Shown here: positions 17,229-28,091 of the stretch, in pieces | How the letters are laid out: every line of letters starts with the position of its first letter | Numbering within the stretch: the stretch's first letter is position 1 | Assembly: GCA_947631095.1 (NCBI GenBank) | Contig: CANRJX010000004.1 | Span: forward strand, 1-43,831 | Direction: 5' to 3' | Origin: an uncultured Wohlfahrtiimonas sp. | GTDB lineage: Bacteria > Pseudomonadota > Gammaproteobacteria > Cardiobacteriales > Wohlfahrtiimonadaceae | Length of the DNA: 43,831 bases | Notes under the pieces: generated by a model | Seen by the model: only the letters and a program-made list of their open reading frames with translations | Told to the model about the DNA's origin: nothing | The model's database searches: none | Program-made: the position numbers and the translations under genes

Positions 17229-17356
17229 TACCATTATTTTTATAGAAAAAATATATGTGCAAAAAGCGTTGTCAAAAAACTGACACAATTGCTTGGTAAT
17301 CTCGAGTGAGCTTCATCATTGTCCTGAATATATAACTAAGCAGAGGAATGATCACG

Positions 17357-18034
17357 ATGAAAGATAAAACCATCATTAGCTTACCTGATGTACCCAAGCG
17401 CTCTATTTTGTTTATAGACATTGAAAATTGTCCATCCAAGATTAGCGAGCTCATCCTCGAATTTAAGGAATATCATAAAGTTGTGATTTGCTATGCCAAT
17501 ACTGGCGTTAAGATTCCCTTAGATTGGATTACATCATTGAGTGAATTTGTCATGCAAGGGCGATTAGAGTTAGTCAAAATGGGTGATATTGCAAATAATT
17601 CAGCAGATTTTGGCATCACGTTTATGCTCGGTTGTTACTTTGAGCAATATGATCGATTTGAAATATATTCTAATGATAAGGATTTTGATGCGATTATTAA
17701 TCTTGTGAATCGCTCACCCAATAAAAAAGCAAAACGTGTGGGTACAACGCGCAGTAATAAAGAGTTACAGTTTGATTCTTTGTTAATCAAAATGTGCAAG
17801 ATGTTGCATAAGATTGAAGATTACTCTCGACCTGTAAAACTTGAGAGCTTACGCAATACGATTCGCTCACAGTTAAAAGGCTCAGACATTACGGATAGAG
17901 CAAGAGAGCATTTAGTGAATCATGTAATCAGTCGAATGGAGTTTTTGGATGTTGTGCGCGTCAAAAATCAAGGCAATATTCTGCAATATAACTCCAATCG
18001 CATTGAAGATTTCTTGGGTAAAATGAGTGCGTAA
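17357..18034 (+). CDS. NYN/PIN-like domain protein, putative nuclease
   Basis: The second ATG (MKDKTIISLP) is chosen because AGAGGAA lies eight bases upstream; the ORF track begins three codons earlier. The 225-residue product starts with a PIN-like fold: SILFIDIENCPSKI has the first acidic strand end, NSADFGITFMLG a central Asp, and FEIYSNDKDFDAIINLV the third acidic cluster. These are the positions that bind metal in NYN/PIN RNases. The C-terminal half is helical, with a winged-helix-like feel (SLRNTIRSQLKGSDITDRAREHLVNHVI), and may bind nucleic acid. It stands alone without an obvious antitoxin gene. RNA cleavage is a family-level guess. Confidence 0.65.
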   Translation: MKDKTIISLPDVPKRSILFIDIENCPSKISELILEFKEYHKVVICYANTGVKIPLDWITSLSEFVMQGRLELVKMGDIANNSADFGITFMLGCYFEQYDRFEIYSNDKDFDAIINLVNRSPNKKAKRVGTTRSNKELQFDSLLIKMCKMLHKIEDYSRPVKLESLRNTIRSQLKGSDITDRAREHLVNHVISRMEFLDVVRVKNQGNILQYNSNRIEDFLGKMSA

Positions 18035-18111
18035 CATCGTGATTATTGATGGAAATATTGATTATTTTATTGTAGCTTTGTTAAACGCTCAAAAAATATA
18101 AGAGAATTAAT

Positions 18112-18489
18112 ATGCGCTATATAAAATATTTGATAATAAGTTTGTCTTTAATGATGATTGGAATGACTGCGACGATGCCTGATAAAATTCATAAAAACTG
18201 GTTAAGAGAATGGGATGATGGTTGGGTGGTTTATGCTTATCAGTCATCGGGTAATTTATACAGGGCAACACATGAAAAGCCTTATTTGGAAAATTTTGGC
18301 AAATATACAATAGAGAAAGATCGTATTAAGTTTATTGATAATCCTGAGAATTATACGGCTGTCATTTTTGATTTTTCAGTTGAAAATGGTGAAGATGTTT
18401 TACATCTTTATGATGCTGAAACCAGAAAACCTTATGGAAATTATCATTCAATTTCAGATATAGAGATGGATAATTTAATGCACGATTAG
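18112..18489 (+). CDS. Small exported protein of unknown function
   Basis: The 125-residue protein has an N-terminal signal or anchor: MRYIKYLIISLSLMMIGMTATMP, basic then hydrophobic. The mature part is rich in aromatic and acidic residues (WLREWDDGWVVYAYQSSGNLY; YTAVIFDFSVENGEDVLHLYDAE) and looks like a compact beta-rich domain. I recognise no family. An AGAGAATT sequence lies just upstream of the ATG and a strong bidirectional terminator follows, so it is a real transcription unit. The 77-base gap from the NYN gene could allow co-transcription. There is no cysteine, so a lipoprotein is excluded. Confidence 0.7.
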   Translation: MRYIKYLIISLSLMMIGMTATMPDKIHKNWLREWDDGWVVYAYQSSGNLYRATHEKPYLENFGKYTIEKDRIKFIDNPENYTAVIFDFSVENGEDVLHLYDAETRKPYGNYHSISDIEMDNLMHD

Positions 18490-18495
18490 TTAAAC

Positions 18496-18522
18496 AAAAA
18501 GCCCTCAATGAGGGCTTTTTTA
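18496..18522. terminator. Bidirectional terminator between the small exported protein and the AAA+ gene
   Basis: GCCCTC pairs with GAGGGC around a three-base loop, with A's before and T's after, in the 42-base convergent gap. It also ends the long ccm-AAA+ transcript on the minus strand. Confidence 0.9.
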
Positions 18523-18531
18523 TTGAATCAA

Positions 18532-20628
18532 TTATTTATTAGCCACAAACCCAATCGTAGTGCCTTTGGCTTGTTTGAGATCATTCTCTTTCACTAATTG
18601 CGCTAATATCTCTTCAGGTTTCGTGATCACGCCCAATTTAGCTTGACGGGCAGAGATCGCAAAGTCACCGGGTGCTAAGCTAGTTAGTTTTTTAAAGTTC
18701 ATTTCCAATGCTGGATCAATTTCTTTAAAGCCTAAATAACGGCATTGTTCATTGAACAATAACCAAGCTTGATCGGCTGTTAAGTAGTTAAATTTCACTT
18801 TAAAGTCAAAACGACGAAGCATCGCTTGATCTAAATGATCCATCAAGTTTGTGGTTGCGATGAAAATGCCTGAAAACTCTTCCATTTGCGTGAGCATTTC
18901 GTTGACCATTGTCACTTCATAATTTTGCTGAGCATGGCGACGATCACGCAAGAAGCTATCCACTTCATCCATCAATAAGATTGCGCCTGTTGTATTCGCT
19001 TCATGGAATGCAGCAGCGATTTGCTTCTCAGTTTCACCAACATATTTATCCATCAAATCAGATACTTTTTTGATGAGTAAAGGCTTATTCAAATAATCCG
19101 CTAAGTAATGTGCAAATGCTGATTTACCGGTGCCAGATGCACCATATAAACAGATGCGTGCTTCATTGAATACTTTTAGGCGTTCGGCCAATAATGCTAA
19201 GTTTGAATCAGTATTCGTAAATGCAGGATTATAAATGTCACTTAAGCCACCAATTTTAGCAATGCGAATTTCTTCATTGCCTTGTGCCTTCAGTGTGCCA
19301 TTAATGATGGTTGCCGCAGCTTCATCATAATTGCCATTGAGTGAGTCTTGAATGGTGTTTAAAACTTTTGCAGTGCGGTCAATAATCGCAGGCACTAAAT
19401 TTTTAGAAAGCGCCAATGCATTTAAAGTGTTAGGGCTTAGTGTACCTTTTAAGGCAGACTCCAACATTGCTTTGCGTTCTGATTTTGGCGGTGATGCTAA
19501 ATGGAAAGTAAAATCAAAACGGCGAATAATGGCAGGATCAATGTCATAAGTATCGTTACAAATCCAAATGGTCGGAATTTTATTGGTTTCTAAAATATGG
19601 TTGAACCATGCTTTAGAAAAGTTTGGTAAACCTTCCATGGAGCCATCAAAAAATACATCTTCAATTTCATCAAAAATGATCAATGATTTTTGATTACAGA
19701 AGAAGTTTTGTGCGGCCAAATAAGCATATAAACGCTGTTCGCCTTTTTCTACGCCTTCGCCTTGAATGGATTCAGAGACAACTTCATAAGCAGATACTTT
19801 GAAATAATCCACTAAAACACGCGCCAACTCTGTTTTGCCTGTGCCAGGTTCACCATAAATTAATATGTTGATGCCTTTTTCATTGTTATCTAAAGCATAT
19901 TGTAAATATGGCACTAAAATAGAGAGTTCAGTTTTTAAGTAGTTAAAGTTTTCGAGTGTTAAGTCTGTAGGTTTGCTCTTAGAAACAACATCTTTCAGAA
20001 TGTTATAGGGCGTTGTTTCGTGAGAGAACATCGCTTCAATAAAATTGCGTGACAACAAATCAATTTTGCCACGGAAGAATAGAGAAGGGCCATGATGTAC
20101 ACGCACTAAACCTGTGCGAGCTAATGTACCATCCGATGCGAATGCCGTACGAATTTCTTGTGGCGTAGTTTGAAGTAATACTGCCAAAATACGATACATT
20201 TGATCAGAGCTGATTGCGCCCAATAAGTCCAACGCATTATTCAATAATGTTTCATTGTACGTAATCAGCGTGAATTCTAATAAAGCACATTCAATGTCAG
20301 AAAGATCAATCAGAGATTTTAAGTTTTCTAAATTATGGCTTAAATCTGCATTGTAAGGCTTTTTAAAGAGTTCAGGATCAGCAGATAATGCTTCTTGCTG
20401 TTCTTTTAATGTTTTTAAAATATCAGCACGATTTAAAGGTGGTTTATGATTGATCCATTTATCTAAAGATAAGGCCGTTGCTAATTGATCATCACTAAAA
20501 TAGTCTTTATGAATAAACTCGCGATGGCCACCAAGATCAATAATAATTGTTAAAATCCATGATTGTACAATCGGTGGTAATTGTTGTGTGTAATCCATAG
20601 CTAAAGCCGGAGTTGTTTTGTTTGTCAT
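18532..20628 (-). CDS. Tandem AAA+ ATPase of unknown function
   Basis: The 698-residue protein carries two complete AAA+ modules. The first has Walker A YGEPGTGKTELAR near residue 259, Walker B LIIFDEIEDVFF and an IIRRFDF arginine-finger region. The second has Walker A YGASGTGKSAFAH near residue 496, Walker B ILLMDEVDSFL and MLRRFDF. The first 230 residues are a helical region I do not recognise. There is no protease, zinc-binding or membrane segment, so it looks like a cytoplasmic remodelling ATPase. It starts 17 bases after ccmB and lies in the same direction with no terminator between, so it should be the last gene of the ccm transcript. A link to cytochrome assembly is suggested only by position. 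Confidence 0.85.
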   Translation of the reverse strand: MTNKTTPALAMDYTQQLPPIVQSWILTIIIDLGGHREFIHKDYFSDDQLATALSLDKWINHKPPLNRADILKTLKEQQEALSADPELFKKPYNADLSHNLENLKSLIDLSDIECALLEFTLITYNETLLNNALDLLGAISSDQMYRILAVLLQTTPQEIRTAFASDGTLARTGLVRVHHGPSLFFRGKIDLLSRNFIEAMFSHETTPYNILKDVVSKSKPTDLTLENFNYLKTELSILVPYLQYALDNNEKGINILIYGEPGTGKTELARVLVDYFKVSAYEVVSESIQGEGVEKGEQRLYAYLAAQNFFCNQKSLIIFDEIEDVFFDGSMEGLPNFSKAWFNHILETNKIPTIWICNDTYDIDPAIIRRFDFTFHLASPPKSERKAMLESALKGTLSPNTLNALALSKNLVPAIIDRTAKVLNTIQDSLNGNYDEAAATIINGTLKAQGNEEIRIAKIGGLSDIYNPAFTNTDSNLALLAERLKVFNEARICLYGASGTGKSAFAHYLADYLNKPLLIKKVSDLMDKYVGETEKQIAAAFHEANTTGAILLMDEVDSFLRDRRHAQQNYEVTMVNEMLTQMEEFSGIFIATTNLMDHLDQAMLRRFDFKVKFNYLTADQAWLLFNEQCRYLGFKEIDPALEMNFKKLTSLAPGDFAISARQAKLGVITKPEEILAQLVKENDLKQAKGTTIGFVANK

Positions 20629-20645
20629 TTGAATCTCAAGAAAAT

Positions 20646-21314
20646 TTAATGAAGACTAATGCGAAGTGCAAAAGCTGTAATAAGTGGTGCGAGTGCAAGC
20701 GTAATAAGATCTAATGCAAAAAATACAGCATAAAATCCTGCCACAGAATGCCCTTCAACGATTCTAAGTGTTGCCTGTACACCAAAAATAAGCACAGGTA
20801 AAAAGAGAGGTAGAGCGATGATGCTGAGCAATAAGCCCGCGCGTCTTAATTGTAAAGTTAAGGCAGTACAAATTGCACCAATACAGCTCAAAATAGGTGT
20901 GGCGATTAATAGTAAAAATGCGATTTCTAGTACTTGTGGTACTGTGAAATACAGCATTAAACCTAAAATCGGTGAAACAATGATTAATGGGAGCGCAGTT
21001 AAACACCAATGTGCAATGATTTTTGCTAAAACAACCACCACCAATGGTGTGCCTGAAAGCATGAGTTGCTCTAATGAACCGTCATCATAGTCATTTTTAA
21101 ATAAACGTTCCATGATTAGCATGTTCGATAAAAGCGCACCAATCCATAAAATGGCTGGTGAAACATTGCGCATCACTTTTTCATTATCTAGCCCTAAACC
21201 TAATGGAAATAAGCTAACAATGATCAAAAAGAAGATCATTGGTGTTAATAATTCTGTTCGTTGGCGCATGCCCAGTTGTAGATCACGTTGAATGATCGCA
21301 GTGAATACACTCAT
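20646..21314 (-). CDS. ccmB: Heme exporter protein CcmB
   Basis: This 222-residue inner-membrane protein has six hydrophobic segments, the usual length and layout for CcmB. The N-terminus FTAIIQRDLQLGMRQRTELLTPMIFF and the loop LLSNMLIMERLFKNDYDDGSLEQLMLSG (acid-rich, before the third helix) are family hallmarks. With CcmA and CcmC it forms the ABC-type complex that, with ATP hydrolysis, releases heme-loaded CcmE in cytochrome c maturation System I. It overlaps ccmA by four bases (ATGA). It lies after ccmI rather than at the head of the operon. Confidence 0.95.
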   Translation of the reverse strand: MSVFTAIIQRDLQLGMRQRTELLTPMIFFLIIVSLFPLGLGLDNEKVMRNVSPAILWIGALLSNMLIMERLFKNDYDDGSLEQLMLSGTPLVVVVLAKIIAHWCLTALPLIIVSPILGLMLYFTVPQVLEIAFLLLIATPILSCIGAICTALTLQLRRAGLLLSIIALPLFLPVLIFGVQATLRIVEGHSVAGFYAVFFALDLITLALAPLITAFALRISLH

Positions 21315-21952
21315 TCTTTTCTATAGCTCTCAATAATGTGATGTTGATTATACACTGCTTCTGATGGTGTTTGATGTGATGTGAAAATAACTGTGCCATT
21401 TTGTTCATGATGGGCTTTTATGGCAGTCTCTAAAATTTCAACAGAACGTTTATCTAACGCTGTAAAAGGCTCATCTAGAATCCAAATTGTTTTAGGTTCT
21501 AGCCATAAGCGTGAAAGTGCAACACGACGCCTTTGTCCCGCAGATAAGAAACGAATTGCACGGCTTTGAGTAGGAATTGAAAGTTTTTCAAAAATTTCAT
21601 AAATTTCCGTATCAGACTTTTGTATGCCTTGAATTTTTAGCATTAAGCTAATGTTTTCATAAGCTGTTAAATCATCTTTCAAACCAAGCGCATGACCAAT
21701 GTATAAAATTTGTTGGTGATAAACATGCGCAAGCTCTTTGCGATTAATCTCATTTAAAAAAATATCACCTAAATAAATATTATTTAATCCTGCAATGACA
21801 CGTAAAAAAGTTGTTTTACCTGCACCATTTTCACCTTCAATATAAAGGCTATCACCATTTTTTAATGTCAGCGAAACAGGCGTAAAAACTTTTCGGTAAT
21901 TACGTGTTGCGCTGACATCTTGAATGGTTAATGTAAATTCAGGAAACATCAT
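21311..21952 (-). CDS. ccmA: Cytochrome c maturation ABC ATPase CcmA
   Basis: The 213-residue ATPase has Walker A GENGAGKTTFLR near residue 40, the signature LSAGQRRRVALSRLWL and Walker B IWILDEPFTALDKRS, followed by the H-loop VIFTSHQT. It lacks extra domains, as expected for CcmA. ATP hydrolysis by CcmA with CcmBC drives release of holo-CcmE. Its first base is the last base of the ccmI stop (TAATG-type overlap), and it overlaps ccmB by four bases, so translation is probably coupled. Confidence 0.95.
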   Translation of the reverse strand: MMFPEFTLTIQDVSATRNYRKVFTPVSLTLKNGDSLYIEGENGAGKTTFLRVIAGLNNIYLGDIFLNEINRKELAHVYHQQILYIGHALGLKDDLTAYENISLMLKIQGIQKSDTEIYEIFEKLSIPTQSRAIRFLSAGQRRRVALSRLWLEPKTIWILDEPFTALDKRSVEILETAIKAHHEQNGTVIFTSHQTPSEAVYNQHHIIESYRKE

Positions 21953-23691
21953 TAATTGGGCTTAATTGGTGATGCTTTTGAGCTATCACGAATTTGATCT
22001 AGAGTAATAATATTAATTTTTGCTGTTGGAATGGCTTCTTTAATGCTTTCAATATCTCCTGCTGTTCCCACTGCTTCGTTGGTCATACTTAAACGACCAC
22101 CAATTTCGAGATTATCATAAGAGAATAAGCTTGGTGAATTTGGCATTAATTTATCAGCATCTGTGATTTCTACTGTTAATGGAAAACTCAATGTTTTAGC
22201 CGCTGGAATTTTTTTAGCAGCCAAAGGCATACGAGAACCAGCCATAGAAATAAATAGATTGAGCGTAGTAGCATTTGGTAATGCTTCTAAATCAACATCT
22301 GGTGCATTCACTTGTACTAAAAAACGCTTATCTTGTTGTTTAGCAACCAAATCAACAAGTACGTTCATATTATTTGCAAATGGTTCTACATCATCTTTTG
22401 GCTCAAATAATAAAGCACTTTCATAAGCTCCTTTCGGTAATTGAACAAGTGGAGTTGTATAAATGGTTGAATTATTTTTAAGATTTTTGATGTCACCAAA
22501 CACAGCAATGTGCTCATAATTGCGAATTGGCTGGGCAATCCCTTCAAAACTATCAAAATCATTGATTGAGATTTCATCAGGAATATTTGAATTAGGCGTG
22601 ATTAAAATTTCTTTATAGGCCAATGGTGTATTTTCTTCTAAATCCATCATATATACCGTTAATAAAGAAGGATCCGATAAACTTTCCCAATTTAAAGCAT
22701 CTAATGATTTTGTGTTAATCACATAATTGCGAATTTGTGCAGTTTCCATTGTTTGCTGATTAATAGCCGCCAAAATCATATCAATCGCCTGCACTGTTTT
22801 TTCAGACTGCTCTTTTTGTTCTGGTGTAGTGTTGCGTTCAGCAAAGATTTTGCGAAGATTTTGCCATTGAACAATCGCTTCATCAATCATTTGGTTGTCA
22901 TACAATGCTTGAGCATACATCACACGCAAGCCAGTATCTTCAGGATTCAACGCCAAGAAAGCTTCAATCTTTTTAATTAAAGCAGGGGTTAATTGATTTT
23001 GAGAATTTTGTAACTCAATATCAATGATCATCGTATTTGCGATGTAATCGTTTGGCGATAACTCAATAACTCTTGAATAAACCTCATGTGCTGCAGGAAG
23101 CCATCTAACATCATAGAGCATTTTGCCAAGTAACTTTAATGTTGTCGGATTATCATGAGTCTCTTTTGCGCTCATGAAAAATAGTGCAGGGAAACCATAT
23201 TTTAACTCATTGAAAATTTCAGGGTTACGAGGTTGAGGTTCAACTTCTAAAATACTTTTCGGAGAATTTAACTCAGCCGATGGAATTGTATCGCGCCATT
23301 CTGTGAATTCTTGCACTAAGCGTGTGCGTTCAGAATCATAAAGACGAACATCTGGTGTGTATGATAAAGCCCAAAATCCACCAATTGCAAGGATAGGGAA
23401 GAGCAAAGCAATTAACGTTACGATAATGCGTGTAGGAGCAGATAATTTAACAACATTTTGTCTGCTAATTTTAAGCAAATCTCGTGCAGCTTCAGCTTTC
23501 TGAAGATCATATTGTTCTTGAGTCAGTGCACCACTTGCGAGTTCCTTAGATAAACGCTCTTCTGTTGCAATATAATTTTTCTTATAAATATCTTGCAACG
23601 AAACTTCTGGTTGAGCTGATTTTGATCTGACTAATGGGTAAAAAATTACTAATATTGTCAGTGCAAAAATTAAAAAAGAGGTGAAAATCAT
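21952..23691 (-). CDS. ccmI: Cytochrome c biogenesis protein CcmI (TPR-containing)
   Basis: The 579-residue protein has the CcmI plan: an N-terminal membrane helix (MIFTSFLIFALTILVIFYPLV), a cytoplasmic loop (EERLSKELASGALTQEQYDLQKAEAARDLL), a second helix near residue 90, then a periplasmic TPR region (LLGKMLYDVRWLPAAHEVYSRVIELSPNDY and IEAFLALNPEDTGLRVMYAQALYDNQMIDEAI). The C-terminal domain (LTVEITDADKLMPN...IGGRLSMTNEAVGTAGDIES) resembles the CcmI tail. It holds apocytochrome c and presents it to CcmF/CcmH. It is long for CcmI because of about 200 residues between TPR and tail. It overlaps ccmH by four bases. Confidence 0.9.
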   Translation of the reverse strand: MIFTSFLIFALTILVIFYPLVRSKSAQPEVSLQDIYKKNYIATEERLSKELASGALTQEQYDLQKAEAARDLLKISRQNVVKLSAPTRIIVTLIALLFPILAIGGFWALSYTPDVRLYDSERTRLVQEFTEWRDTIPSAELNSPKSILEVEPQPRNPEIFNELKYGFPALFFMSAKETHDNPTTLKLLGKMLYDVRWLPAAHEVYSRVIELSPNDYIANTMIIDIELQNSQNQLTPALIKKIEAFLALNPEDTGLRVMYAQALYDNQMIDEAIVQWQNLRKIFAERNTTPEQKEQSEKTVQAIDMILAAINQQTMETAQIRNYVINTKSLDALNWESLSDPSLLTVYMMDLEENTPLAYKEILITPNSNIPDEISINDFDSFEGIAQPIRNYEHIAVFGDIKNLKNNSTIYTTPLVQLPKGAYESALLFEPKDDVEPFANNMNVLVDLVAKQQDKRFLVQVNAPDVDLEALPNATTLNLFISMAGSRMPLAAKKIPAAKTLSFPLTVEITDADKLMPNSPSLFSYDNLEIGGRLSMTNEAVGTAGDIESIKEAIPTAKINIITLDQIRDSSKASPIKPN

Positions 23692-24146
23692 TGAGGAGTA
23701 TCCTTTTTGTTTAGCATTTCAGACAATTTTTCGATTTCTGCTTGTGATAAAGGTTGTATGTTTGTTGTTTCAGCTTTTCTACGGCGAGAAAAAATAATAA
23801 CAAGAACACCCAGTAAGACAATTGCAGGGCCGAACCAAAGCACAAAAGTAATAGGTTTAACTGGTGGCGTATATAGAACGAAATCACCATAACGATCGAC
23901 CATAAATGATAGGATCTCACTATCGCTTCTGCCATCATTGATCATAAAATAGACGCGGTCTTTCAAGTCTTTTGCTAATGGTGCGTCTGAATCGGCTAGA
24001 TTTTGATTCTGGCATTTCGGACAACGTAAGTCTTTGATTAATGAGTTAAAGCGTTTTTCGCTCACAGGATTATTAAAAGGATAAATGTTGACATTAGCAA
24101 CGGCTAACCCTGAAATGAGCACCAAAAAAATTAGGATTTTTTTCAT
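23688..24146 (-). CDS. ccmH: Cytochrome c maturation thiol protein CcmH
   Basis: The 152-residue protein has a signal peptide, then the CcmH/CycL domain. The redox pair lies in LRCPKCQNQNLADSDAPLAKDLKDRVYFMINDGRSDSEILSFMVDRYGDFVLYTPP, nearly the textbook family sequence. A single C-terminal membrane helix (VLWFGPAIVLLGVLVIIF) anchors it with the thiol domain in the periplasm. It reduces the apocytochrome CXXCH thiols for heme ligation. It corresponds to the short CcmH; the TPR part is the separate CcmI. It shares one base with ccmG and four with ccmI. Confidence 0.95.
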   Translation of the reverse strand: MKKILIFLVLISGLAVANVNIYPFNNPVSEKRFNSLIKDLRCPKCQNQNLADSDAPLAKDLKDRVYFMINDGRSDSEILSFMVDRYGDFVLYTPPVKPITFVLWFGPAIVLLGVLVIIFSRRRKAETTNIQPLSQAEIEKLSEMLNKKDTPQ

Positions 24147-24697
24147 TATGACTGATCTCCTTTGGCAAAGAGTGACTCATAAATCGTTTTCAATTGAGAG
24201 TTCCATACATCCGGTAAAATTGCACCAACATGACGATAACGAATGACATTATTTTCATCTACAAAAAATGTTTCAGGTGCACCATAAACGCCTAACTCGA
24301 TACCAACAGAGCCGCTTTCATCGAGAAAATTAAATAAATATGGGTCGCCAAGATCTTGTAACCATCTATGAGCAAGCACCGGGTCATCTTTGTAGTTAAT
24401 ACCATAAATAGTAATGCCTTGGTCTTTTAAAACATTTAAGGTTTCATGTTCATCACGACATGTTGGACACCATGTTGCCCATACATTGATCAATGCAGGG
24501 CCTTTGATGTCTTCATTCGTTAAAATCGCAGCGATACTATTGGGGGCGTCTAATTTTTTGGAACTGAATTCAGGAAGTGGCTTACCTTCTAGTTGAGAAG
24601 GTAATTTACTTGGATCATTGCCTAATGTTATGAAAAAGAAGCCAAATATAATAACTAAGGCAGATACTGTAAGTGCAGTAATTGCAGGTTTTTTCAT
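24146..24697 (-). CDS. ccmG: Thiol:disulfide interchange protein CcmG/DsbE
   Basis: This 183-residue membrane-anchored thioredoxin-fold protein has an N-terminal hydrophobic helix, then PALINVWATWCPTCRDEHETLNVL with the active-site CPTC pair, and the cis-Pro region GAPETFFVDENNVIRYRHVGAI. CcmG passes reducing equivalents to CcmH in the periplasm. It starts nine bases after ccmF with an AAGGAG site and overlaps ccmH by one base. Confidence 0.95.
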   Translation of the reverse strand: MKKPAITALTVSALVIIFGFFFITLGNDPSKLPSQLEGKPLPEFSSKKLDAPNSIAAILTNEDIKGPALINVWATWCPTCRDEHETLNVLKDQGITIYGINYKDDPVLAHRWLQDLGDPYLFNFLDESGSVGIELGVYGAPETFFVDENNVIRYRHVGAILPDVWNSQLKTIYESLFAKGDQS

Positions 24698-24706
24698 ATT
24701 AACTCC

Positions 24707-26686
24707 TTATTTTTCAGAGACACTTTGACGACGAAGGCTAAACAATGCAACCACTGCCGCCATTGCCATAATGATACCGCCGAACCAAATCCAACGAATG
24801 AACGGTTTAACATACAAACGAATCGCCCAACTTTGACCTGGTCGCTCTTCAGAAAGCGCAATATAAAGATCATCTAAGATAGATGCTCTTAGAGCCACTT
24901 CACTGATGGGCATTCCACTTGCTGTATAGATACGTTTTTCAGGATGCATCATGCGTAAAAATTCGCCTTGGAAACTCACGGAGAAAGTCCCTTTTGTTGC
25001 GGTATAGTTAGGACCTTGAATGTCTTCTAATTTCTCTAATTTGAAATCATAGCCTTGTACTGCCTCAGTTTGACCAACTTTTAATAAACGATCTGCTTCT
25101 ACGCTGTAATAGCTTGTCATAGTAATGCCGATGATTAAAATCACTGTACCAAAGTGACCCAAGTTCATTGCAACGCGAGACATCGACTGTGAAAAAAAGC
25201 CTTGAATGAAATTTGCATTGCGCGGTTTGTGCATGTAAATCTCAGACAATATGCCAAAAAATACCCAGTAACAAAGAATTAAACTCAGAGTTACCATCGG
25301 TTCTAGCAGTGGTAAAGGTAATTCATTATTGTGATTAAGATTATTGATATAAGTTACGTACAACGCATTTGATACTGGGCCTAAGATTAATGAAGCAATC
25401 GCCATAAAAATCAACGGTTTTTTAATGCGGCTCAGTTGATCTTTTTTGAAGCGAACCATCGGCGTGATGCCCATAATCACTAAAAGAATCAATGCGAGAG
25501 GATTAACGGTTTTATTGAAGAAGTTAGGGCCCACTGATATTTTACCAATCGCTAACATATCAATAATTAACGGATAAAGTGTTCCTAAAACAACGATAAA
25601 ACAAATAACTGATAAGAAAATATTATTCAATAAAATACCAGTTTCTCTTGAAACTAATGTCACATTTGCTTGCTGGCGAATTCTATTTGAACGGAATAAC
25701 AATAAACCGATTCCAAAAATTACAACCATTGCAAGGATCATTAAAATGATTGCACCACGTCTAGGATCTGCTGCGAATGAGTGAACAGATGTTAAAACAC
25801 CTGAACGGACTAGGAATGTACCTAATACACTTAAGCAGAAACATAAGATTGTCATTAAAACTGACCAAATAGAGAATGCTTGGCGTTTTTCAGTAGTAAT
25901 TAATGAGTGGAGAAGTGCAGTGGATAAAATCCATGGAATCAAAGATGCATTTTCTACAGGATCCCAGAACCACCAGCCACCCCAGCCAAGTTCATAATAA
26001 GCCCACCAGCTACCAACCGTGATGCCTAATGTCAAAAATGCCCAAGCTGCTAATACCCAAGGGCGCAACCAACGAACTGTGACACGGTCAATATAGCCAT
26101 TAATTAAAATCGCACATACAAAAGCATAAGGTACTGCAAAACCGACATAACCCATATACAACAAAGGAGGGTGTATGATTAAACCAACATCTTGTAGCAA
26201 AGGATTAAGATCACGACCATCAAAAATCATATTATCGATCATGCGGTCGAATGGATTAGATGTAAAGATGACAAATGCGATAAATGCAGCTGAAATCGCA
26301 CCTAAAATTGATAATGTCGTTGCGGTTAATTCAATCGGAAGCTTACGCATAAAGAATGTTGCAACATACATCCACAATGCCAATGTTAATACCCAAAGTA
26401 ATACAGAGCCTTCATGGCTGCCCCAAATTGCCGTAAATCTGAAAATGGCAGGCAATTGTGTGTTTGAGTTACGATATACATATGAATAACTGAAATCATT
26501 CACATAAAAAGCATAACCAAGGCATACAAAAGAAATTAACAGCATCCAAAATATCCATGCTGTTAATGGTTTTGAGGTCTGCATTAGCTTTATGTTATGG
26601 GTATAAAGCCCGACCATTGGTAGGAAAAGTAATAATAAAGATGAAGCTAGTGCGATATATAGGGTTAATTCGCCATATGGTAACAT
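24707..26686 (-). CDS. ccmF: Heme lyase subunit CcmF
   Basis: The 659-residue polytopic protein (E. coli CcmF is 647) carries the WWD heme-handling motif as GWGGWWFWDPVENASLIPWIL near residue 235. Further heme-ligand regions are WGSHEGSVLLW and HPPLLYMGYVGFAVPYAF. It joins heme from CcmE to apocytochrome c with CcmH and CcmI at the periplasmic face. It begins nine bases after ccmE. Confidence 0.97.
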   Translation of the reverse strand: MLPYGELTLYIALASSLLLLFLPMVGLYTHNIKLMQTSKPLTAWIFWMLLISFVCLGYAFYVNDFSYSYVYRNSNTQLPAIFRFTAIWGSHEGSVLLWVLTLALWMYVATFFMRKLPIELTATTLSILGAISAAFIAFVIFTSNPFDRMIDNMIFDGRDLNPLLQDVGLIIHPPLLYMGYVGFAVPYAFVCAILINGYIDRVTVRWLRPWVLAAWAFLTLGITVGSWWAYYELGWGGWWFWDPVENASLIPWILSTALLHSLITTEKRQAFSIWSVLMTILCFCLSVLGTFLVRSGVLTSVHSFAADPRRGAIILMILAMVVIFGIGLLLFRSNRIRQQANVTLVSRETGILLNNIFLSVICFIVVLGTLYPLIIDMLAIGKISVGPNFFNKTVNPLALILLVIMGITPMVRFKKDQLSRIKKPLIFMAIASLILGPVSNALYVTYINNLNHNNELPLPLLEPMVTLSLILCYWVFFGILSEIYMHKPRNANFIQGFFSQSMSRVAMNLGHFGTVILIIGITMTSYYSVEADRLLKVGQTEAVQGYDFKLEKLEDIQGPNYTATKGTFSVSFQGEFLRMMHPEKRIYTASGMPISEVALRASILDDLYIALSEERPGQSWAIRLYVKPFIRWIWFGGIIMAMAAVVALFSLRRQSVSEK

Positions 26687-26695
26687 GCCAACTCC

Positions 26696-27163
26696 TTAAG
26701 GTTGTGAGCCAGGATGTCTTGAGTTTTCATCAAGAACAATACCAGATTTTTCGAGAGATTCTTTCACTTCAGGTGGCATATATGTTTCATCATGTTTTGC
26801 TAAAATTTCAGTAGCAGTAAAAGTATTTTTATCAGATAAAAAGCCAGTTGCGATGACGCCTTGTCCTTCTCTAAATAAGTCAGGGAGCATTTTATCGTAA
26901 GTAACATTTACTCGTTCTTGCCCATCCATAATGTCGAAAGCAACATCGATTGTTTCAGTGCTTTTTACTATTGAACCCGGCGCAACTAAACCGCCTATTC
27001 TAATAGAGCGTTCTAAAGGTGCTTTACCTTCTTTAACTTCGATGGGTGAATAGTAGTAATTTAATTCACTTCTAGATGCATAAATTAGCAGCCCAATTGC
27101 TGCAAGCGTTACCGCTACCAATGCGGAGACAATAATGGCTCGTTGTTTTTGTTTCGGGGTCAT
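26696..27163 (-). CDS. ccmE: Periplasmic heme chaperone CcmE
   Basis: This 155-residue protein has an N-terminal anchor (AIIVSALVAVTLAAIGLLIYA) and the OB-fold heme-chaperone domain. The covalent heme-binding His and axial Tyr sit in ILAKHDETYMPPEV near residue 125. It takes heme from CcmC and hands it to CcmF. Its start codon overlaps the ccmD stop by one base. Confidence 0.97.
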   Translation of the reverse strand: MTPKQKQRAIIVSALVAVTLAAIGLLIYASRSELNYYYSPIEVKEGKAPLERSIRIGGLVAPGSIVKSTETIDVAFDIMDGQERVNVTYDKMLPDLFREGQGVIATGFLSDKNTFTATEILAKHDETYMPPEVKESLEKSGIVLDENSRHPGSQP

Positions 27164-27348
27164 TATTCAATTCCTTCTTGCTTCATAATTTGTTTTAGTT
27201 TCTTACTTTCACTAAATAGAGGGATCACTAAGCCAAGCACACAGATTAAAAAGAATCCATAACTCAGCCAAACATATAAACCATGTTTTCCCATTTGCAG
27301 AAATTCTGCAAAGCTCCCAAATGCAAATGTCATTGTTATTCCATCCAT
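27163..27348 (-). CDS. ccmD: Heme exporter protein CcmD
   Basis: The 61-residue single-helix protein contains the CcmD landmark MGKHGLYVWLSYGFF followed by a basic tail. It stabilises the CcmABC/CcmE complex in the inner membrane. The first ATG is two bases after the ccmC stop without its own Shine-Dalgarno; a second ATG five codons on has a GGATGGA upstream and may be the true start. Confidence 0.9.
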   Translation of the reverse strand: MDGITMTFAFGSFAEFLQMGKHGLYVWLSYGFFLICVLGLVIPLFSESKKLKQIMKQEGIE

Positions 27349-27350
27349 AA

Positions 27351-28091
27351 TTATTGATTCAAGTAATGTTTCATAACTTTTTCTCTGTTAATTAAGTTCA
27401 CACTCTTTTTTAGAACATAGCCTGTGGTGAATAGACTGTAAGCTATGATCATTAAAATAAGTGGTAACAACATATCCATCGGAATTTTAGGACCACCGGA
27501 TGCAAAAAGTGTACTTTTTTGGTGCAAAGAGTTGAAAAAGTATACTGAGAATTTTACAAGAATTGCGGTTGCTATACCAATTACAGCTAAAATTGATGTG
27601 AATAGATCTGCTGTTTGTCTATCTTCAATTGCATGATCAAATGCGATGTAGCCAATGTAAAAGAATAATAGTAATAGTTCAGAGGTTAATCTTATGTCCC
27701 AAACCCACCAAGTTCCCCACGTTGGTGCACCCCAAATCGCGCCAGTCACTAATGCAATTGCTGTATATACTGCGCCAATAACTGCAAGGCTTCTAGCAAC
27801 CAATGGTAATAGTTTAACTTTCCAAATTAAAAAGCAAAGACTTGTGATGGCCATTGTCATATATAAAGACGTAGAAAGCATAGCCGCAGGAACATGAATA
27901 TAAATGATTCTAAAGCTATTACCTTGTTGGTAATCTGGTGGTGCAAAACCCAAGCCAAGTGTTAAGCCAATTATTGTGAGAATAAGGCTTCCCCAAAGAC
28001 AATACGGTGTAATTGCATTTGCTAAAGGGATATAGTATTTATAGCTCGCATACTTTTTATACCAGCTTACTTTTTTTGTTGAAACAGCCAT
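27351..28091 (-). CDS. ccmC: Heme transporter CcmC
   Basis: The 246-residue protein has six membrane segments and the WWD motif WGTWWVWDIRLTSELLLLFFYIGY near residue 125, essentially the canonical CcmC sequence, with flanking His residues (IIYIHVPAAMLSTSLYM upstream). It attaches heme to CcmE. It is the first gene of the ccm transcript here, whereas most gammaproteobacterial clusters begin with ccmAB. A -10 sequence TATAAT lies about 32 bases upstream. Confidence 0.97.
   Translation of the reverse strand: MAVSTKKVSWYKKYASYKYYIPLANAITPYCLWGSLILTIIGLTLGLGFAPPDYQQGNSFRIIYIHVPAAMLSTSLYMTMAITSLCFLIWKVKLLPLVARSLAVIGAVYTAIALVTGAIWGAPTWGTWWVWDIRLTSELLLLFFYIGYIAFDHAIEDRQTADLFTSILAVIGIATAILVKFSVYFFNSLHQKSTLFASGGPKIPMDMLLPLILMIIAYSLFTTGYVLKKSVNLINREKVMKHYLNQ

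Follow-up and report, generated by a model that had tools for sequence, protein, structure and literature searches.

The gene at positions 18532-20628 (minus strand) probably encodes a Cdc48-like tandem AAA+ unfoldase or segregase. It belongs to an unnamed mobile family whose members often lie in mobile or defence islands, accompanied by a WYL-domain regulator; one copy is fixed directly behind ccmB in this genus and is likely reached by read-through. This reading is given a probability of roughly 0.6. The position is best read as co-option or hitchhiking behind the cytochrome c maturation (ccm) genes, and the gene is probably a settled passenger that is not part of the cytochrome machinery. 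The window, i.e., the whole stretch of DNA that was analysed (43,831 nucleotides), is an entire contig of an 81.5%-complete genome of an uncultured Wohlfahrtiimonas sp.

The gene and its transcription unit

The open reading frame (18532-20628, minus strand) begins with ATG, has no internal stop, and encodes 698 amino acids. It is identified by the reading frame, its Pfam domains, and a full-length match to PHROG 10401. Upstream, on the same strand, is a complete ccm set in the order ccmC, D, E, F, G, H, I, A, B. The genes ccmI, ccmH, ccmG, ccmF, ccmE, ccmD, and ccmC occupy 21952-28091 and are assigned from reading frames and profile matches; ccmD is a CcmD-like frame of 61 aa (27163-27348) between ccmE and ccmC. 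ccmA (21311-21952) is assigned by a profile match, and ccmB (20646-21314) by PF03379 (E=4e-63).

The spacer between ccmB and the AAA gene (20629-20645, minus strand) is 17 bp long. A search of this stretch for a terminator-like hairpin found none, and it folds no better than its shuffles, so the coordinates and the hairpin scan agree with the earlier note, which had placed the gene 17 bases after ccmB with no terminator between. Just 3' of the AAA stop codon is a bidirectional hairpin resembling an intrinsic terminator (18496-18520; 11 pairs; dG -15.4/-15.5 kcal/mol; z of about -4), which can be read from both strands. A search for an internal promoter of the AAA gene was uninformative, with 51 promoter-like matches in the region vs 47.2 in shuffles. 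Judged by this layout, the AAA gene is most likely the last gene of the ccm transcription unit. Co-transcription with ccmB is predicted as likely because the 17-bp gap lacks a terminator, a strong terminator follows the AAA gene, the junction is found in all six species compared, and the gene is under purifying selection.

Conservation within the genus

The ccmB-AAA junction is present in 6/6 species of the genus, namely the window genome and five others. In those five genomes the AAA gene lies 15-17 bp after ccmB, and in one it is split over two contig ends. Identity of the protein within the genus is 85-96% where a full-length comparison is possible. The dN/dS of the gene is 0.04-0.07, equal to that of ccmB and, in comparisons restricted to unsaturated dS, below that of ccmA or ccmI. 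The AAA gene is therefore a working gene, and decay of a passenger is ruled out by the same values. The suggestion in the earlier note that this "may simply be a passenger gene" comes closest to the present reading, but strong purifying selection means that the passenger is functional.

Protein architecture

The Pfam AAA family (PF00004) matches the protein twice (total E=1.3e-44), and in the genome scan the two matches fall at 19501-19866 for AAA1 and 18787-19155 for AAA2. AAA module 1 spans residues 226-440 (19309-19953, minus strand) and carries the Walker A motif GEPGTGKT, the Walker B motif FDEIED, N358, and R369/R370. AAA module 2 spans residues 477-686 (18571-19200, minus strand) with Walker A GASGTGKS, Walker B LMDEVDSF, N594, and R605/R606. 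Its pore-loop-1 motif is KYVGETE (residues 528-534). Across 38 aligned homologues, the Walker A Lys, Walker B Glu, sensor-1 Asn, and two Arg are invariant in both modules, and the Walker B Asp has a single exception, in AAA1. The pore loop [YW]VG is kept in AAA2 of nearly all 38 members; an aromatic pore-loop motif is absent from AAA1 in this alignment. The protein thus has complete catalytic residues in both modules and an aromatic-hydrophobic-Gly pore loop 1 in AAA2, as looked for in tandem AAA unfoldases.

Ahead of AAA1, no Pfam family scores above its cut-off. The earlier description of two complete AAA+ modules behind an unrecognised N-terminal region therefore holds. Residues 17-215 (19984-20580, minus strand) are confidently predicted to form an all-helical domain (pLDDT 93.3 and pTM 0.87 for the domain alone). 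The domain model has no match among PDB and viral folds at E<=0.001. A winged helix variant, PF22977, matches the region weakly in 10/38 members (best E 0.0074) and is left as a hint, too weak to name the domain. The full-length model, which resembles a soluble protein, has a mean pLDDT of 89, with low confidence only at residues 1-13, 330-333, and 690-698.

The best PDB relatives by both sequence and fold are the archaeal VCP-like ATPase, Rix7, Cdc48, and NVL, all of them tandem AAA unfoldases. Like Cdc48/p97/VAT, NVL, and Rix7, the protein places an N-domain ahead of two tandem classical AAA modules, and its catalytic sites are complete. Superposition of the whole model on Cdc48-type chains is nevertheless poor (TM 0.36-0.45), partly because a monomer model leaves the position of the modules relative to each other uncertain. 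The N-domain of Cdc48 differs from the all-helical domain seen here, and the IGF tail at the C-terminus is the protein's own. Against the CDC48 family model TIGR01243, the protein scores 68.8 bits vs a cut-off of 802.65. Membership of the IetA, FtsH, CDC48, and SpoVK families was rejected, with all scores far below the curated cut-offs.

Unfoldase activity is inferred from motifs and fold because no studied homologue was found in the papers searched. Six subunits would assemble into a double ring. The AAA1 ring would hydrolyze ATP and, having no aromatic pore loop, may serve chiefly as a structural or regulatory element. In the AAA2 ring, the KYVG pore loops would pull on polypeptide; substrates may be chosen by the helical N-domain, and the C-terminal IGF tail may dock the ring onto a partner.

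Distribution of the family

The protein's own family is PHROG 10401 ('ATPase'), which it matches over its full length (residues 17-692 to profile positions 10-665 of 667, E=1.2e-121). This PHROG has no functional description, and the members found here are mostly chromosomal and plasmid-borne. A search of the available papers for the family, or for AAA+ proteins in ccm operons, found no description. The family was traced with PHROG 10401 and through 274 gammaproteobacterial genomes, named genomes (80 loci), plasmids, phage records, and viral contigs. It is scattered over chromosomes of Proteobacteria and Campylobacterota and occurs on 14 plasmid records (at least 80% coverage) and one phage record. 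The viral contigs gave one match, of 33% over residues 166-694. The homologue loci share ancestry and were sampled unevenly, and their neighbours are named from Pfam, PADLOC, or record annotation.

In Comamonadaceae and relatives (L151-L187), a longer AAA protein, in many cases extended at its N-terminus, is encoded on chromosomes close to RecQ and PEPCK genes. The family seems to have settled there too, as a second resident lineage. Two divergent copies are adjacent or a few kb apart in L101 (7224-9359 and 10704-12860), L122, and L107.

Relation to cytochrome c maturation

Only in this genus is the gene linked to ccm. Outside the genus, none of the 93 loci with a family ORF has ccm genes (0/93). 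CcmB was sought in 29 homologue-bearing genomes, and eight gave no detectable match; these include G084 (100%-complete, single contig), Pandoraea terrae, Lampropedia puyangensis, Campylobacter troglodytis, and G006, whose genome is no more than 80% complete. The family thus neither stays linked to ccm across lineages nor follows ccm in its phyletic pattern. Sister genera of the same family have ccmB and lack the AAA homologue. In several of them, sequences read by eye place a MarR-like gene and an efflux lipoprotein after ccmB. The tree pairs the window clade with the copy of G006, from another genus of the family (support 100/99), and this sister copy sits behind ribF on a contig with rpoA. 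Either the ccm linkage arose within the genus, then, or the sister lineage lost it.

These results give no support to a role in heme stress, which the earlier note suggested, or in cytochrome c biogenesis: the survey of gene neighbourhoods that the note proposed finds homologues consistently away from ccm. A cytochrome role argued from conserved linkage is rejected, the linkage being confined to the genus. A narrower version would make the protein a maturation or quality-control factor of this genus alone, recruited to clear or remodel misassembled apocytochromes or the Ccm proteins themselves. The unbroken junction with its 15-17 bp spacer, purifying selection equal to that on ccmB, and a terminator only after the AAA gene speak for it, and the exact junction in 6/6 species, which could reflect such a function, also counts against the passenger reading. 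Against it stand the absence of ccm from all outside loci, the CcmB-less genomes, the sister genera that manage without the AAA gene, and the ribF-linked nearest relative. Most Ccm proteins are membrane or periplasmic, and the model here is of a soluble protein. A genus-specific cytochrome role is accordingly improbable, the least likely of the roles weighed.

Neighbours and the case for defence

A WYL-domain regulator lies within ~7 kb of 36/93 homologue loci, often at less than 100 bp. About 0.4 of 93 loci would be expected from 47 WYL matches in 56 genomes of the class; the enrichment is an indication, not a test, and the loci are not phylogenetically independent. WYL proteins have been described as regulators of defence systems (PMC4012209). 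Other neighbours at homologue loci are DUF2779, SIR2, RtcB, and ADP-ribosylglycohydrolase genes. One plasmid locus has BREX pglZ/brxD neighbours, and another locus has a DrmD-like helicase with a type III methyltransferase. A constant operon partner was sought and rejected; WYL is the commonest neighbour, followed by DUF2779 and RecQ (11 loci each). The RecQ neighbours belong to a fixed betaproteobacterial subclade, a large one from which WYL and defence neighbours are absent and in which the AAA gene may be housekeeping.

A recurrent cluster was seen at L081, L084, L112, and L115, with the order AAA, (DUF2779), WYL, a ~420-aa protein, a ~655-aa protein, and an SNF2/DEAD helicase. The ~655-aa protein is phospholipase D-like in L081. 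The cluster is possibly an unnamed defence operon.

Within the genus, the interval behind the AAA gene is a variable-cargo site that differs from species to species. In the window, the interval beyond the terminator (17348-18489, plus strand) holds a PIN7-domain gene (17348-18034) and a 125-aa orphan ORF. In G002, a PARIS AriAB fusion (E=1.8e-107; L039:11968-13878) comes immediately behind the AAA gene. In G004, a RelA/SpoT-type gene matching PADLOC PDC-S33 begins 10 bp after the AAA stop (L040:12187-13203). G005 has a 177-aa protein without assignment in this interval, and G001 and G003 have no cargo after the AAA gene.

Among known defence proteins, the best PADLOC and NCBIfam model is IetA, the AAA ATPase of the IetAS anti-phage system, which matches over AAA2. 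IetA differs in being a single-AAA protein of ~370 aa (profile length), and the protein studied here scores 110.4 bits vs a cut-off of 510. An IetS-type protease gene was not seen beside the AAA gene within the window.

The C-terminal tail

The codons of the tripeptide I692-G693-F694 (18547-18555, minus strand) lie in a tail predicted to be disordered (pLDDT 43 at residues 690-698). G693 and F694 are present in 38/38 homologues, and the first position is I/V/M/L in 37. The motif falls within the last 14 residues of 85/97 family ORFs, vs 7/814 other ORFs at the same loci; some of the 12 family ORFs without it have truncated or shifted ends. ClpP is encoded in the same genome, and the docking loop of that genome's ClpX (L006:1171-2457), GGIGFTADL, contains the same tripeptide, IGF.

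In ClpX/A/C, the docking motif belongs to an internal loop and not to the C-terminus. The AAA protein differs from ClpX in carrying the motif in a C-terminal tail, and from both ClpX and HslU in being a classical tandem AAA protein and not a single ClpX/HslU-type module. It resembles HslU in having a docking-type motif at the C-terminus. The known ClpP-docking motif is (L/I/V)-G-(F/L) (PMC8745299), which IGF fits, and the C-terminal tail of HslU docks onto HslV (PMC4106860). In free HslU, the same tail is buried in the neighbouring subunit (PMC4106860).

Weighing the possible roles

The unfoldase reading is favoured by two complete ATPase sites, an aromatic pore loop confined to AAA2, and PDB matches that are tandem AAA unfoldases. 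Its mobile origin agrees with the spread of the family over plasmids, a phage record, and many chromosomes, with WYL near more than a third of the loci, and with sister genera that have ccm and lack the AAA gene. The low TM scores count against the first part, and the RecQ-linked subclade without WYL or defence neighbours counts against the second. As for what such an unfoldase does, the neighbours make defence or conflict the leading idea, a tentative one. The protein would be a component of anti-phage defence or mobile-element conflict, elsewhere under a ligand-sensing WYL regulator, and in this genus would mark a defence hotspot behind ccm. The WYL enrichment, the defence-type genes at loci elsewhere, and the PARIS fusion and PDC-S33-type gene carried by congeners point this way. 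Yet there is no constant partner, a search turned up no WYL gene beside the window copy or elsewhere in its genome, and in two congeners the AAA gene stands without any cargo. Among PADLOC models none covers the protein in full, that of IetA reaching the AAA part only, and the neighbour loci share ancestry.

The tail offers the leading mechanistic lead, though a doubtful one. By analogy with the ClpX loop, IGF would dock the unfoldase on ClpP and make it a second type of ClpP unfoldase. The near-invariance of the motif, the predicted disorder of the tail, the ClpP and matching ClpX loop of the same genome, and the HslU precedent for a C-terminal tail are consistent with docking. Set against them, the motif is internal in the Clp ATPases, and a short hydrophobic tail could equally bind a neighbouring subunit, as in free HslU, or another partner. 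Defence, ClpP docking, and a cytochrome role are not mutually exclusive. A bolder combination would have mobile double-ring unfoldases borrow the host ClpP or another ring protease through IGF, act in phage or plasmid conflict under WYL control, and be domesticated behind ccm here; this is unlikely. Under the favoured reading, a Cdc48-like unfoldase from a mobile family, one copy would have become fixed directly behind ccmB in the genus and, to judge from the layout, would be transcribed by read-through from the ccm operon, without the WYL regulator of many relatives.

Significance

The idea of an AAA+ factor that acts in cytochrome c maturation turns out to be a false lead. What takes its place is a defined bacterial family of probable Cdc48-like unfoldases whose N-domain has no assignment, whose C-terminus carries a docking-type motif that hardly varies, and whose genes are strongly linked to WYL regulators. 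Docking of the tail on ClpP, if real, would mean that a type of ClpP unfoldase moves horizontally among bacteria. If the family acts in defence, a protein-unfolding motor would be added to the defence repertoire.
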